NCBI RefSeq assembly: GCF_020252405.1
Contig: NZ_JADCDA010000012.1
Span: 1-50,198, forward strand
Length of the DNA: 50,198 nucleotides
Direction of reading: 5' to 3'
Origin: Aestuariivirga sp.
Lineage (GTDB): Bacteria > Pseudomonadota > Alphaproteobacteria > Rhizobiales > Aestuariivirgaceae
The stretch's first letter is position 1; the number at the start of each line of letters is the position of its first letter. The notes beneath the pieces were generated by a model that did not search any database, was not told where the DNA came from, and saw only the letters and a program-made list of their open reading frames with translations. A program made the position numbers and the translations under genes. This document shows positions 39,761 through 43,036 of the stretch, in pieces.

Positions 39761-39828
39761 ATCCGGAGCGCCGTACGGGCAGCGCCGTCACCACCTCCCA
39801 GTACGCCGTCCACCACCCCCTCCAAGCG

Positions 39829-39915
39829 CCGTCACCCCAGCGAAAGCTGGGGTCCAGCTTTGGACGGCAACCACGCGGGCAGAAAGCTGGATTCCGGCTT
39901 TCGCCGGAATGACGG
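39829..39915. repeat. 87-bp imperfect palindromic chromosomal repeat
   Basis: CCGTCACCCCAGCGAAAGCT on the left is mirrored by AGCTGGATTCCGGCTTTCGC followed by CGGAATGACGG on the right. This kind of GTCA-C-C-C-C-A-G-C repeat is common between alphaproteobacterial genes, and a degenerate relative is at 8751-8807. It separates the parE stop from the foreign-looking DNA that follows. Confidence 0.75.
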
Positions 39916-39926
39916 AAATTTTGTTA

Positions 39927-40022
39927 GCCCGTTCCGCGATTGCAAATACTGTGGATCATCTCATGGGTTATAAGCCCGAGGAGCAATCCATCCCAATACA
40001 TCCTGAGTTTGAGAGCGAATAA
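39927..40022 (+). pseudogene. diverged second copy of the parE 3' end
   Basis: 31 codons open into this segment and end at TAA. A-N-T-V-D-H-L-M-G-Y-K-P-E-E matches the parE tail A-R-I-V-E-Q-L-M-G-N-K-P-E-E. At DNA level, GTGGA-CA-CTCATGGG-A-AAGCC-GAGGA is shared, with differences mostly at third positions. It is lower in GC than parE itself. There is no start codon and no ribosome site, so it is a fragment. The best reading is the end of a parE from another organism, imported with the DNA that follows. Confidence 0.6.
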
Positions 40023-40067
40023 AGTCTGGAGATTTGAGGAAAAAACGTGGGGTAAGGTAAAAAACAG

Positions 40068-40097
40068 TTGCAGGCCCCAGGACGTTCCTTGTATGTT
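40068..40097 (+). promoter_or_regulatory. candidate promoter of the Panacea gene
   Basis: TTGCAG (40068-40073), an 18-base spacer and TATGTT (40092-40097) lie about 29 bases before the ATG at 40126, within AT-rich leader DNA. The -35 match is moderate. GTGAG sits eight bases before the start codon. Confidence 0.35.
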
Positions 40098-40125
40098 CCA
40101 GTTTTGTGGAGATCCGTGAGTAATC

Positions 40126-40674
40126 ATGGCATTTGATGCAAGAGCTGTTGGAAACCTAATTCTGGAGGTTGCCGCGAAATCCGAGTATCGGATAACCAAT
40201 TTAAGCTTGCAAAAGTTGCTATACTTTAGCCATGGTTCCTACTTACTCAAGACGGGTAGTCCGTTGGTGTCGGGGTATTTTGAAGCATGGCAATTTGGTC
40301 CAGTCCATCCTACCGCCTACGGGGCATTCAAAGCTGCAGGTGACAAACCCATTGAATTCCGAGCCTCTGGTTTTGATCCTGTCACACGGGTGCCTCAAGA
40401 ATTTCCCCCTATCGAAGACACGAATGCGAAACAGATCGTTTCTCTGGTTGTTCAAGCCTATGGAGGTCTAAGTCCCGGCCGATTAGTTGATCTCTCTCAT
40501 GCAGCGAATTCACCTTGGTACTATGTTGTGGAAAACGCCAAGGTGCGACCAATGCTCGGCTTGCGAATCAGCGATAATCTAATTCGCGAGCGCTTCAAAT
40601 TTCACAAAGTGTCTGTTGCGAATCAACCGCGGTCAGGAGAACCGAATGAAGAAGCGCCTTTTGCCTCAGATTGA
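40126..40674 (+). CDS. Panacea/SocA-domain antitoxin (DUF4065)
   Basis: 182 residues. L-S-L-Q-K-L-L-Y-F-S-H-G-S-Y-L at about 26-40, F-E-A-W-Q-F-G-P-V-H-P at 51-61 and Y-G-A-F-K are the Panacea (DUF4065) core, found in SocA and in a very promiscuous antitoxin class that pairs with unrelated toxins. It should bind and neutralise its partner protein. It overlaps the next gene by 29 bases, the usual layout of such pairs. GC is about 40-45% by hand count of sample lines, far below the surrounding genes, so it is recently acquired. Confidence 0.85.
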   Translation: MAFDARAVGNLILEVAAKSEYRITNLSLQKLLYFSHGSYLLKTGSPLVSGYFEAWQFGPVHPTAYGAFKAAGDKPIEFRASGFDPVTRVPQEFPPIEDTNAKQIVSLVVQAYGGLSPGRLVDLSHAANSPWYYVVENAKVRPMLGLRISDNLIRERFKFHKVSVANQPRSGEPNEEAPFASD

Positions 40675-41362
40675 TTTGGTTAGAGCCATGCCGCTGTCTC
40701 GCATAGAGAAGCGAGCGTTGCTCCAGAAAGTGAAGTTTTTTCGGCCTACCTTGACTTATCGAGCGGTCAGGGCAGTAACGCCGGATTTGTTTAATGTTCG
40801 GCCTGGTTGTCTCGAACCTACCGCCAGCTGCTGGTCAGAAATCGCAAATGCAATCTCATCTCGGTGTCTGCACGTTGCTGAGAGAATACAAAATCTCGCT
40901 GTCGGGAAGCGGGTATTTGAGGATTCAACGCAGCGTCGATTGACTGGTTACCAACATCAGTTGTTCCCCTTGAAAATCGGAATTTCTGGCGGAGCGGTTC
41001 TGTGGAGCGACTTTTACATCGTTGTCGATGGTGTGCCCGTTTTCCCGTTCATTGATCCCCGGCGCTCGAATGGACTAGGTCCGATTGCGCGAAACGTTGC
41101 ATTCTCTTTGATGCATCAAAGGATCAGAGCAGACGGTGGGGATTTTGCATCGGCGGAGTTCGCTATCTATAAATTCCCTAGCGAGGGTGCTGAATCAAGG
41201 CGTCTAAGTATTCACTCTTCCGATGGCGCTGAATTGTATTCGTACGATGACTTGGAGCAGATGATCCAAGAGGTATACGAGGTTTGGGAAGAGGTCCTTT
41301 CGGATCGCGAGGCGGAAAAGCGAAGGGCAGCCGGTGGTCGCGTTGGGTCACTGGGTATATAG
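40646..41362 (+). CDS. unrecognised protein, candidate toxin partner of the Panacea antitoxin
   Basis: 238 residues. It is soluble, with no signal peptide or membrane helix, and I recognise no family. Residues 1-60 are basic (M-K-K-R-L-L-P). The centre has F-P-L-K-I-G-I-S-G-G (107-116), W-S-D122-F-Y-I-V-V-D128-G-V-P-V-F-P-F-I-D137-P-R-R, then an E171-F-A-I-Y strand and a charged helix (D-L-E-Q-M-I-Q-E-V-Y-E). Spaced acidic residues followed by a beta strand would suit a nuclease-like fold, but this is speculation. It overlaps the antitoxin gene by 29 bases and shares its low GC. GTCAGGAGAACCGA precedes ATG 40646. Confidence 0.7.
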   Translation: MKKRLLPQIDLVRAMPLSRIEKRALLQKVKFFRPTLTYRAVRAVTPDLFNVRPGCLEPTASCWSEIANAISSRCLHVAERIQNLAVGKRVFEDSTQRRLTGYQHQLFPLKIGISGGAVLWSDFYIVVDGVPVFPFIDPRRSNGLGPIARNVAFSLMHQRIRADGGDFASAEFAIYKFPSEGAESRRLSIHSSDGAELYSYDDLEQMIQEVYEVWEEVLSDREAEKRRAAGGRVGSLGI

Positions 41363-41366
41363 TTAG

Positions 41367-41765
41367 TCACCCCCACCTCTCCACCCTCAGCCCCTCCACC
41401 CGCCCGAACTCCCGCACGTTCCCGGTCACCAGCACTAACCCTTGTGAGCGGGCGATGGCGGCGATCATCAGGTCATAGGCGCCGATCATCTGGCCTTGGC
41501 GTTCAAGCGTGGCCCGGATGTTTCCGGCATGGAGGGCGGCGCGAGTGTCGAATGGCAGAACTTCCAGCCGTGCCGCGAAGCTCTCGATGATGGCAGTGCG
41601 GGCGGACGGATCGTCGTAGCGCTCCGCTCCATAATAGAGTTCGAAGAGCGTCACGTCGGATACGGCCATGCGGCCGTCATGCGCGCTGAACCGCTCGGCG
41701 AGCGCGGCCTTGCGCCGTTTGAGGGCGTGGATGCAGATGTCGGTGTCCAGCAGATAGGCGAGCAT
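41367..41765 (-). CDS. vapC: VapC-type PIN-domain ribonuclease toxin
   Basis: 132 residues. PIN fold: L-L-D-T-D-I-C-I at 5-12 supplies the first catalytic Asp, S-D-V-T-L-F-E-L-Y-Y-G near 36-46 the Glu, and A-Y-D-L-M-I-A-A-I-A near 97-106 the next Asp, with V-T-G-N-V-R-E-F closing the domain. VapC toxins cleave tRNA or rRNA. The ATG at 41765 overlaps the antitoxin stop (TGATG). Its last ~15 codons occur again at 42983-43031. Confidence 0.92.
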   Translation of the reverse strand: MLAYLLDTDICIHALKRRKAALAERFSAHDGRMAVSDVTLFELYYGAERYDDPSARTAIIESFAARLEVLPFDTRAALHAGNIRATLERQGQMIGAYDLMIAAIARSQGLVLVTGNVREFGRVEGLRVERWG

Positions 41766-41995
41766 CAAGTCTCGCCGCGCCGCTGGGGCGAAGGCTGCTT
41801 GCGGTCGCCGAGGAAATCATCGTCCAGCCGCGGTCCGGCGAAGAAATCCGCCCATGTGCCGCCCGCTGGCAGGATCAGCCGGGCGCTGCCGTTGGCGATG
41901 ATCTCCACCTTCTTGACATGGTCCGGCAAGGCCACGGCCTTCGGCAGGCGCACGGCCTGGGTCTTATTGGACTTGAAAACGGTGGATTTGTTCAT
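41765..41995 (-). CDS. vapB: VapB-type antitoxin
   Basis: 76 residues. The N-terminus M-N-K-S-T-V-F-K-S-N-K-T-Q-A-V-R-L-P-K is the AbrB/SpoVT swapped-hairpin DNA-binding domain of VapB. The C-terminal W-A-D-F-F-A-G-P-R-L-D-D-D-F-L is the segment that wraps around VapC and blocks its active site. A perfect operator dyad begins seven bases upstream, so the pair should repress its own transcription. The frame opens 243 bases earlier, but those codons belong to no family. Confidence 0.9.
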   Translation of the reverse strand: MNKSTVFKSNKTQAVRLPKAVALPDHVKKVEIIANGSARLILPAGGTWADFFAGPRLDDDFLGDRKQPSPQRRGET

Positions 41996-42001
41996 GGAGT
42001 G

Positions 42002-42024
42002 TGTATACACCCGTGGTGTATACA
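42002..42024. promoter_or_regulatory. perfect 10-bp operator dyad of vapBC
   Basis: TGTATACACC, three bases (CGT), then GGTGTATACA. Each arm contains GTATAC, itself a palindrome, so two VapB dimers could sit side by side. It ends seven bases before the vapB ATG, where a bound VapBC complex would block the promoter. Confidence 0.8.
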
Positions 42025-42110
42025 ATTCAAGTGTGCTGAAAGCCAAACGCGCTGAATTGTGGGAGAGTGGACGTATCTCGGATTGAGCTTGCCAATCTAC
42101 CCTCGCCTGC

Positions 42111-42758
42111 TCACTCCGCCGCAATCCGCCCTGCCTGCGAATGGTTCGCGTAGGTATCCCACGTCGGGGCATACCCCTCATTCGCCTGATTGCCCCAATA
42201 GGTCCAGCCGGGGCGCGTACCTCTTGCAAACAGCTCAAGATACGGCCCGCGCGAGCAACTCTCGATCACATCATATTGCTCGTCAGGCTTCCGTGAGTGT
42301 TCGCGTTTCCGAGTCTCGATCATGTTCACCTGACGCCGACCCGGTGCCAGGGTGCGGGCGTTCTTGCCGCGGGTGCCGAACAGCAGGATCTCGGTGACAT
42401 TGCGGAAATAGAAGCCCACGCCGCGTCCGTCAGAGCCGCCGTCCTTCCGGATCTTGTGCCAGACGATGTTGCTCTTGTAGTCGAACCCCCATGCCTTCAT
42501 CACCGACAGCCCTTCAGGCAGCAGTGCATTCGGCACCCACATGTAAAGATGTGCGGGCTCCTTCACCACATCGGACACGGGAAGTGCGCCGATGTCATTC
42601 GTCGTCATGGTCTCATAGCGCGTCAGGCGGCGGTGCTCCGGCGCCACCTTGCCGGTGCGGTTGGTGAAGCGCCATGGCGGATCGGCCAGCACCGTGTGAA
42701 ATCTTTGCCCCCGCAAGGACGAGGCGAGATCGATGATCGTCTTATTGAGCTTGTCCAT
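42111..42758 (-). CDS. MT-A70-family DNA adenine methyltransferase
   Basis: 215 residues. D-P-P-W at about 26-29 is the catalytic motif of N6-adenine methylases; V-W-H-K and the T-E-I-L-L-F-G-T-R-G segment are the MT-A70 pattern, and R-P-G-W-T-Y-W-G-N closes the domain. It methylates adenines in DNA. Its start overlaps the 3' end of a decayed BglII-family endonuclease by 17 bases, so it was the protecting half of a type II restriction-modification pair and is now an orphan methylase. A strong promoter at 42932-42960 drives the remnant operon. MTA70-family enzymes can also act on RNA, but this context argues for DNA. Confidence 0.85.
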   Translation of the reverse strand: MDKLNKTIIDLASSLRGQRFHTVLADPPWRFTNRTGKVAPEHRRLTRYETMTTNDIGALPVSDVVKEPAHLYMWVPNALLPEGLSVMKAWGFDYKSNIVWHKIRKDGGSDGRGVGFYFRNVTEILLFGTRGKNARTLAPGRRQVNMIETRKREHSRKPDEQYDVIESCSRGPYLELFARGTRPGWTYWGNQANEGYAPTWDTYANHSQAGRIAAE

Positions 42759-42972: not shown

Positions 42973-43036
42973 GATCGCACCGCCTCTCGACCCTCAACCC
43001 CTCGACCCGCCGGAACTCCCGCAGGTTTCGCGGCAT
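42973..43036 (-). pseudogene. second copy of the vapC 3' end
   Basis: Reads M-P-R-N-L-R-E-F-R-R-V-E-G-L-R-V-E-R, against N-V-R-E-F-G-R-V-E-G-L-R-V-E-R at the end of VapC. At DNA level, bases 42983-43031 match 41376-41424 nearly throughout (CCTCTC-ACCCTCA-CCCCTC, GAACTCCCGCA). The two copies lie in the same orientation and flank vapBC plus the methyltransferase. No start or rest of a PIN domain is present here. Confidence 0.75.

Follow-up and report, generated by a model that had tools for sequence, protein, structure and literature searches.

A socAB toxin-antitoxin pair in a short AT-rich insert between parE and vapBC, with a nuclease-like predicted fold and a candidate clamp-binding tail in SocB

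At the sequence level, the window (the whole stretch of 50,198 nucleotides analysed here) carries two overlapping genes that we name socA and socB, together with the following features:

39780..39915, no strand: repeat-like element with GC-rich inverted repeats, in the interval between parE and the insert, placed by alignment with the relative L068
39916..41366, no strand: inserted stretch of about 1.45 kb bearing socAB, 49.1% GC, both borders inferred from relatives
40126..40674, plus strand: socA, putative Panacea-domain antitoxin gene, 182 aa, from NCBIfam NF047745 and Pfam SocA_Panacea
40635..40640, plus strand: AGGAGA within socA, likely the socB ribosome-binding site, read from the sequence itself
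40646..41362, plus strand: socB, putative toxin gene, 238 aa, ATG at 40646, from NCBIfam NF047746
41054..41062, plus strand: codons of D137-P138-R139, which form the [D/E]-x-R motif closing the third core strand in the SocB model, from the 34-sequence alignment and strand 130-137
41345..41359, plus strand: codons of G-S-L-G-I (residues 234-238), the C-terminal tail and candidate clamp-binding peptide, from tail-pattern counts and pLDDT below 50
41367..41768 and 41765..42238, minus strand: VapBC genes, downstream of socB
42111..42758: MT-A70 methyltransferase gene

The sequence-only reading of this DNA had described a Panacea gene overlapping a 238-residue gene by 29 bases, and the coordinates of socA and socB confirm it. 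The pair was also said to be AT-rich in a GC-rich setting, which holds: it has 49.9% GC (socA 48.1%, socB 51.0%), compared with 64.4% in the window and 66.1% in the parE-type gene upstream, and the lowest value among 930 other equally long stretches of the window (step 50) was 58.0%. Third-position GC is 43% in socA and 52% in socB, against 87% in the parE-type gene. For the claimed VapBC and restriction-modification remains nearby, VapBC is present, and of restriction-modification we saw one MT-A70 methyltransferase gene. Beyond that gene, a stretch of some 56 bases (42980-43035) appears to resemble the 3' end of vapC (41371-41426), the same stretch of the relative L066 being matched by both, and it may be a vapC remnant. 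The socA product carries an F-G-P-V-H-P motif at residues 57-62, in which G58, P59 and V60 (GPV) are identical throughout five aligned SocA sequences.

Both genes match NCBIfam models named after SocAB. SocA scored 232.9 bits against NF047745 (1.9e-69), above the cut-off of 190, and matched Pfam SocA_Panacea at 2e-18. SocB scored 209.4 bits against NF047746 (E 3.4e-62), 0.6 bits below the curated cut-off of 210, and the match spans positions 1-227 of the 228 in the model. The SocB name depends here on this NCBIfam model. Searches of Pfam, PHROGs and PADLOC gave no match for the 238-residue protein, and those of Pfam and PADLOC with alignments gave weak matches only, each to a single member. 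PADLOC had none for SocA either, and PHROGs placed SocA in two families of unknown function. Searching solved structures by sequence returned none for SocB or SocA; at E up to 10, SocB had three weak, unrelated matches. All 34 SocB sequences of our alignment match NF047746, but they were found through that model or through sequences that it had found. None of 14 control genomes, Caulobacter vibrioides among them, had a SocB match, and the founding Caulobacter protein is thus absent from the comparison.

Judged by these family matches, the pair is a socAB toxin-antitoxin locus whose toxin gene is of the SocB type, at the edge of the curated cut-off. The sequence-only reading had seen a partner of no known toxin family, and this part has to be given up: NF047746 already names SocB, which excludes a new toxin family, and the Panacea survey PMC8832971 has SocB as toxin cluster T10 (here and below, papers are cited for the parts of their text available to us). 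The novelty is one further socAB locus of an already known type, with an already named partner.

We compared the neighbourhood with the corresponding loci of 29 relatives. In three of the same genus (L066, L069, and L074), vapC-like sequence lies no more than 112, 66, and 17 bases, respectively, beyond the end of parE. These are the only three with vapC beside parE; the remaining loci have other sequence downstream, and a few stop shortly past parE. Since parE leads directly to vapC in the three, we conclude that socAB came in as an inserted stretch of some 1.45 kb. On the upstream side, the relative L068 aligns with the window up to 39915, through the repeat-like element, whose 23-base core occurs once in the window; the insert starts immediately after it. 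Thus, the alignments indicate that socAB is an insert between parE and vapBC at about 39916-41366, and these borders place vapBC in the older neighbourhood, outside the insert.

The family is small. In the class, the SocB model matched 6 of 385 genomes; in the order, 6 of 347; in another order, 1 of 18; and among relatives, 1 of 61. These genome sets overlap in part. The sole match among the 61 relatives is the window's own genome, and a profile search of 36 further genomes from the genus, not all of them complete, found no SocB. Scanning one genome per species with two short peptide patterns gave 50 loci, 48 of which are presumably alphaproteobacterial, as we read the record titles. Viral contigs yielded three loci. 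For phages, a protein search with two queries found no SocB; for plasmids, the first query returned one distant Rhizobium record and the second none.

Some records stand apart from this distribution. The record titles of two SocAB-like loci are Mycobacterium sp. KBS0706 (L015) and Nostoc favosum (L029), which may reflect contamination or transfer. SocB relatives also lie on three contigs classed as viral in IMG/VR (L062, L063, and L064), although none turned up in named phage records. In BFVD, the unnamed viral protein M4T560, 109 residues long, covers 106 columns of the SocB model at 27% identity, with a TM-score of 0.69 by its own length, and could be a viral SocB fragment.

The sequence-only reading had named homologues mostly lacking a Panacea gene nearby as its refutation, and the counts point the opposite way. 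Sixty distinct loci were available, the window included, after the duplicates L021, L048, L054, and L059 had been excluded from the linkage count. Of these, 47 hold a full-length SocB, and in 46 a full-length SocA overlaps its start; the 47th (L029) lies at a contig end with a partial SocA in place. In five loci an intact SocA accompanies a SocB that is interrupted or incomplete (L040, L042, L046, L049, and L051), three have only SocB pieces and no SocA (L036, L050, and L058), two are truncated at contig ends (L043 and L063), and two are incomplete in both genes (L006 and L052). An intact SocB beside a demonstrably broken SocA was found in none of the 60. As the loci were collected through SocB, SocA genes lacking SocB fall outside this count. 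L011 is a diverged pair: its SocB-like gene (495645-496058 of its contig, genome G468) is below the profile threshold of our analysis and reaches 27.8 bits in NCBIfam, and its SocA reaches 147 bits, under the cut-off of 190. This gene ends in P-D-L-F-A, near the classic clamp motif.

Thus, the Panacea antitoxin of the sequence-only reading is very probably paired with a toxin, as the SocA and SocB matches and the gene linkage suggest. That the 238-residue gene encodes a harmless metabolic protein beside a Panacea gene by chance has next to no probability: linkage and family match rule it out, and we found no point in its support.

The residues singled out earlier as a possible active site (D122, D128, D137, and R139-R140) fared unequally in the 34 aligned SocB sequences, the window's included. 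Position 137 is D in 25, E in 7, N in 1, and G in 1; R139 is R in all 34 and R140 in 27. D128 is kept in part (D in 22, E in 5). D122 is D in only five, and we ruled it out as an active site. Outside this group, D10 is identical in all 34, E79 is kept in 29, and N83, W120, R149, S154, M156, and D166 in 32 or 33. One locus deviates: L010 (the same locus as L054, Hyphomicrobium sulfonivorans) has a SocB with no C-terminal tail and with N at position 137, beside an intact SocA. It is a single case that possibly fits a decayed toxin.

We predicted the structure of SocB with AlphaFold2 from 38 sequences, with loci L002-L011 excluded from the alignments. The window protein gave a mean pLDDT of 86.8 and a pTM of 0.85, and a Bradyrhizobium relative 90.4 and 0.87; the second model used the same alignment reordered, so the two are not independent. 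The core runs helix 77-96, strands 100-103, 123-127, and 130-137, helix 146-161, and strand 171-176. With Foldseek against the PDB, the Cas4-family protein ACE1 came first for both models (E 1.9e-3 and 1.7e-4). AdnA or AddAB, LHK-Exo, HincII, RecE, and MGME1 followed lower in the list of one or both models, with some unrelated proteins between them. PD-(D/E)XK proteins, a fold that we take most of these hits to have, make up most of the best 50 PDB rows per model, many of them repeated HincII chains. Among the viral predicted proteins of BFVD, those of the top five matches that carry a name are nucleases of the PD-(D/E)XK or RecB family (best E 6.0e-4). The TM-scores are low, from 0.35 to 0.50 for the best structural hits and mostly from 0.14 to 0.20 for HincII.

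D137 ends the third core strand, within the conserved [D/E]-x-R, at what we assume to be the site of the (D/E)-x-K motif in the PD-(D/E)XK fold. Two relatives read FIDYRR or FLDYRR there, presumably much like the DYK motif found in RecB-like enzymes. SocB thus resembles nucleases such as ACE1, LHK-Exo, MGME1, RecE, and AdnA/AddAB in the predicted helix-strand-strand-strand-helix-strand order of its core and in the [D/E]-x-R that ends strand 3. However, the residues typical of these enzymes are not retained: the lysine is replaced by arginine in 34 of 34, and position 122 on strand 2 is acidic in 5 of 34. Seven hhalign comparisons of SocB with PDDEXK_1 and Cas4 alignments gave probabilities of 0.1 to 1.2%, hardly above the unrelated controls (0.1 to 0.5%). 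As positive controls, Cas4 (three sequences) against the PDDEXK_1 sets gave 94% and 93%, and only 10% with one set. With no signal in the profile comparison, we rejected sequence-level homology with PD-(D/E)XK families and do not class SocB as a member. From the models, the globular part of SocB is likely a derived PD-(D/E)XK-like fold, and an active nuclease seems unlikely. In our searches on SocB motif, fold, and nuclease we met no description of a nuclease-like SocB fold, in a literature where subscription papers were mostly outside coverage.

Beyond the core, both models show a long helix and then a disordered C-terminus; residues 234-238 of the window protein have pLDDT below 50. The match to NF047746 stops at residue 230 of 238, so the tail lies beyond the model. 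Its last residues follow a pattern: a terminal hydrophobic pair, with a glycine allowed between and at most three residues from the end, occurs in 24 of 26 SocB representatives, in 29 of 275 other long ORFs, and in none of 27 SocA. This pattern was chosen after the tails had been seen. Adding a glycine shortly before the pair gave 23 of 26 vs. 4 of 275, and disallowing the internal glycine 22 of 26 vs. 26 of 275. The representatives are less than 85% identical and exclude L027, whose frame continues past the domain (24 of 27 at worst with it); the 275 were picked mechanically from the same loci and are ORFs rather than verified genes. Tails read, for example, GPLI, GGLF, GPLFD, and, in the window, GSLGI; the ending NPFNF of L003 is related.

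Bacterial clamp motifs at the C-terminus follow QL(S/D)LF with much variation, according to the available text of PMC9690074, and the nuclease NucS has [E/K]-[L/Y]-[T/R]-L-F in its C-terminal region (PMC8228993, seen in part). The leading Q of the bacterial consensus is missing from the tail. The C-termini of DNA polymerase IV-type genes yielded no local clamp motif for comparison. We infer from the pattern that the flexible hydrophobic tail, here G-S-L-G-I, is a candidate clamp ligand.

Alternatively, the tail could be a ClpX recognition signal, with an internal motif such as Q103-H-Q-L-F107 contacting the clamp instead. Caulobacter SocB is indeed a ClpXP substrate in the accessible part of PMC5422525, and residues 103-107 are the only internal match in the window protein to the loose pattern Q-x-x-[LIMVF]-(x)-[FLIM]. 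However, this motif is not conserved, with just 4 of the 34 having Q at position 103, and it lies within the folded part. Moreover, several tails extend one to three residues past the hydrophobic pair (FD, FG, FS, FGTG, FYGL), which we read as unlike a strict C-terminal degron. We therefore hold this reading of the tail to be distinctly improbable.

Taking the tail as the putative clamp contact, the nuclease-like core raises the question of what else SocB does. It could cut or bind DNA at the fork, with the tail merely tethering it to the clamp. The PD-(D/E)XK proteins among the best structural hits, in two models and in both PDB and viral searches, would fit, as would [D/E]137-x-R139 at the expected place and the FIDYRR or FLDYRR of the two relatives. 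So would the collapse of forks under SocB (available text of PMC7566177) and the case of NucS, a nuclease of the RecB type that carries a clamp motif at its C-terminus (PMC8228993, in part). Against this stand the arginine in all 34, the strand-2 acid, conserved in so few, the silent profile comparison, and the low TM-scores, and the portions of the literature examined report no enzymatic activity of SocB. On balance of the models, a core that cuts or binds DNA is unlikely. The same low credence applies to the family-wide version, in which SocB proteins are clamp-tethered PD-(D/E)XK-fold toxins whose [D/E]-x-R pocket is needed for toxicity, by cutting or gripping fork DNA. A tethered toxin of this kind would be suppressed by mutations in the clamp cleft or in the clamp motif no less than a pure clamp plug.

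NucS/EndoMS combines a RecB-like nuclease fold with a short C-terminal clamp-binding motif, in what PMC8228993 offers here, a layout like the one proposed for SocB. In contrast, it is an active mismatch nuclease with another N-terminal domain and no antitoxin, and the likeness is one of architecture alone. RipA of Streptococcus pneumoniae is a toxin of a toxin-antitoxin system that acts on the same clamp pocket, whereas its authors, in the part of PMC12795458 covered, report neither sequence nor structural homology with SocB.

At the functional level, the closest known system is SocAB of Caulobacter crescentus (type VI). In Caulobacter, SocB uses the usual clamp-binding motif to dock in the hydrophobic cleft of DnaN (PMC9690074), blocks elongation and makes replication forks collapse (PMC7566177), and is passed by the adaptor SocA to ClpXP for degradation (PMC5422525), each taken from the part of the paper available. 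The window pair shares with it the matches to models named after SocAB, the antitoxin gene first with the toxin gene overlapping, and a host with DnaN, ClpX, and ClpP. It differs in the SocB score, 0.6 bits short, and in being a lone insert in one species of the genus; the likeness runs through the NCBIfam model. The host genome has one DnaN and a ClpX. Its ClpP (270 bits) adjoins ClpX on the same contig and falls under the cut-off of 308.6, passed by only 5 of 10 matching control genomes.

By analogy with Caulobacter, we think it highly probable that socAB was acquired as a small insert, and that SocB blocks the DnaN clamp and SocA restrains SocB. SocB would bind the hydrophobic cleft of the sliding clamp through its flexible hydrophobic C-terminal tail and, once bound, would stop replication elongation; SocA would hold it in check, in Caulobacter by delivery to ClpXP. 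At the window locus, we infer toxicity, clamp binding, tail contact, and ClpXP proteolysis.

The restraint step could take another form. The window SocA has the Panacea domain and GPV of the PanA-PanT network, and SocB is its T10. However, the pairs tested in the available part of PMC8832971 neutralise by direct binding, and their antitoxins needed neither ClpXP nor Lon. Neutralisation of the window SocB by direct binding could follow. In a further version, the locus would be a Panacea pair that works by direct binding (type II-like), its toxin having SocB-like ancestry and another target. Those tested pairs would speak for it, and so would the 18-38% identity of the window SocB to its aligned relatives. 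As the model match is full-length, the gene overlap the same, and the tail similar to that of the family, we give another target very little weight.

On the reading that we prefer, a clamp-blocking SocB restrained by SocA, the window adds to a small, mostly alphaproteobacterial family one socAB locus whose insertion site is clean. The conserved tail and the nuclease-like core suggest that SocB has two separable parts across the family. If the core proved to be needed, the simple clamp-blocker picture of SocB would change, and SocB would join NucS as a clamp-tethered nuclease fold.
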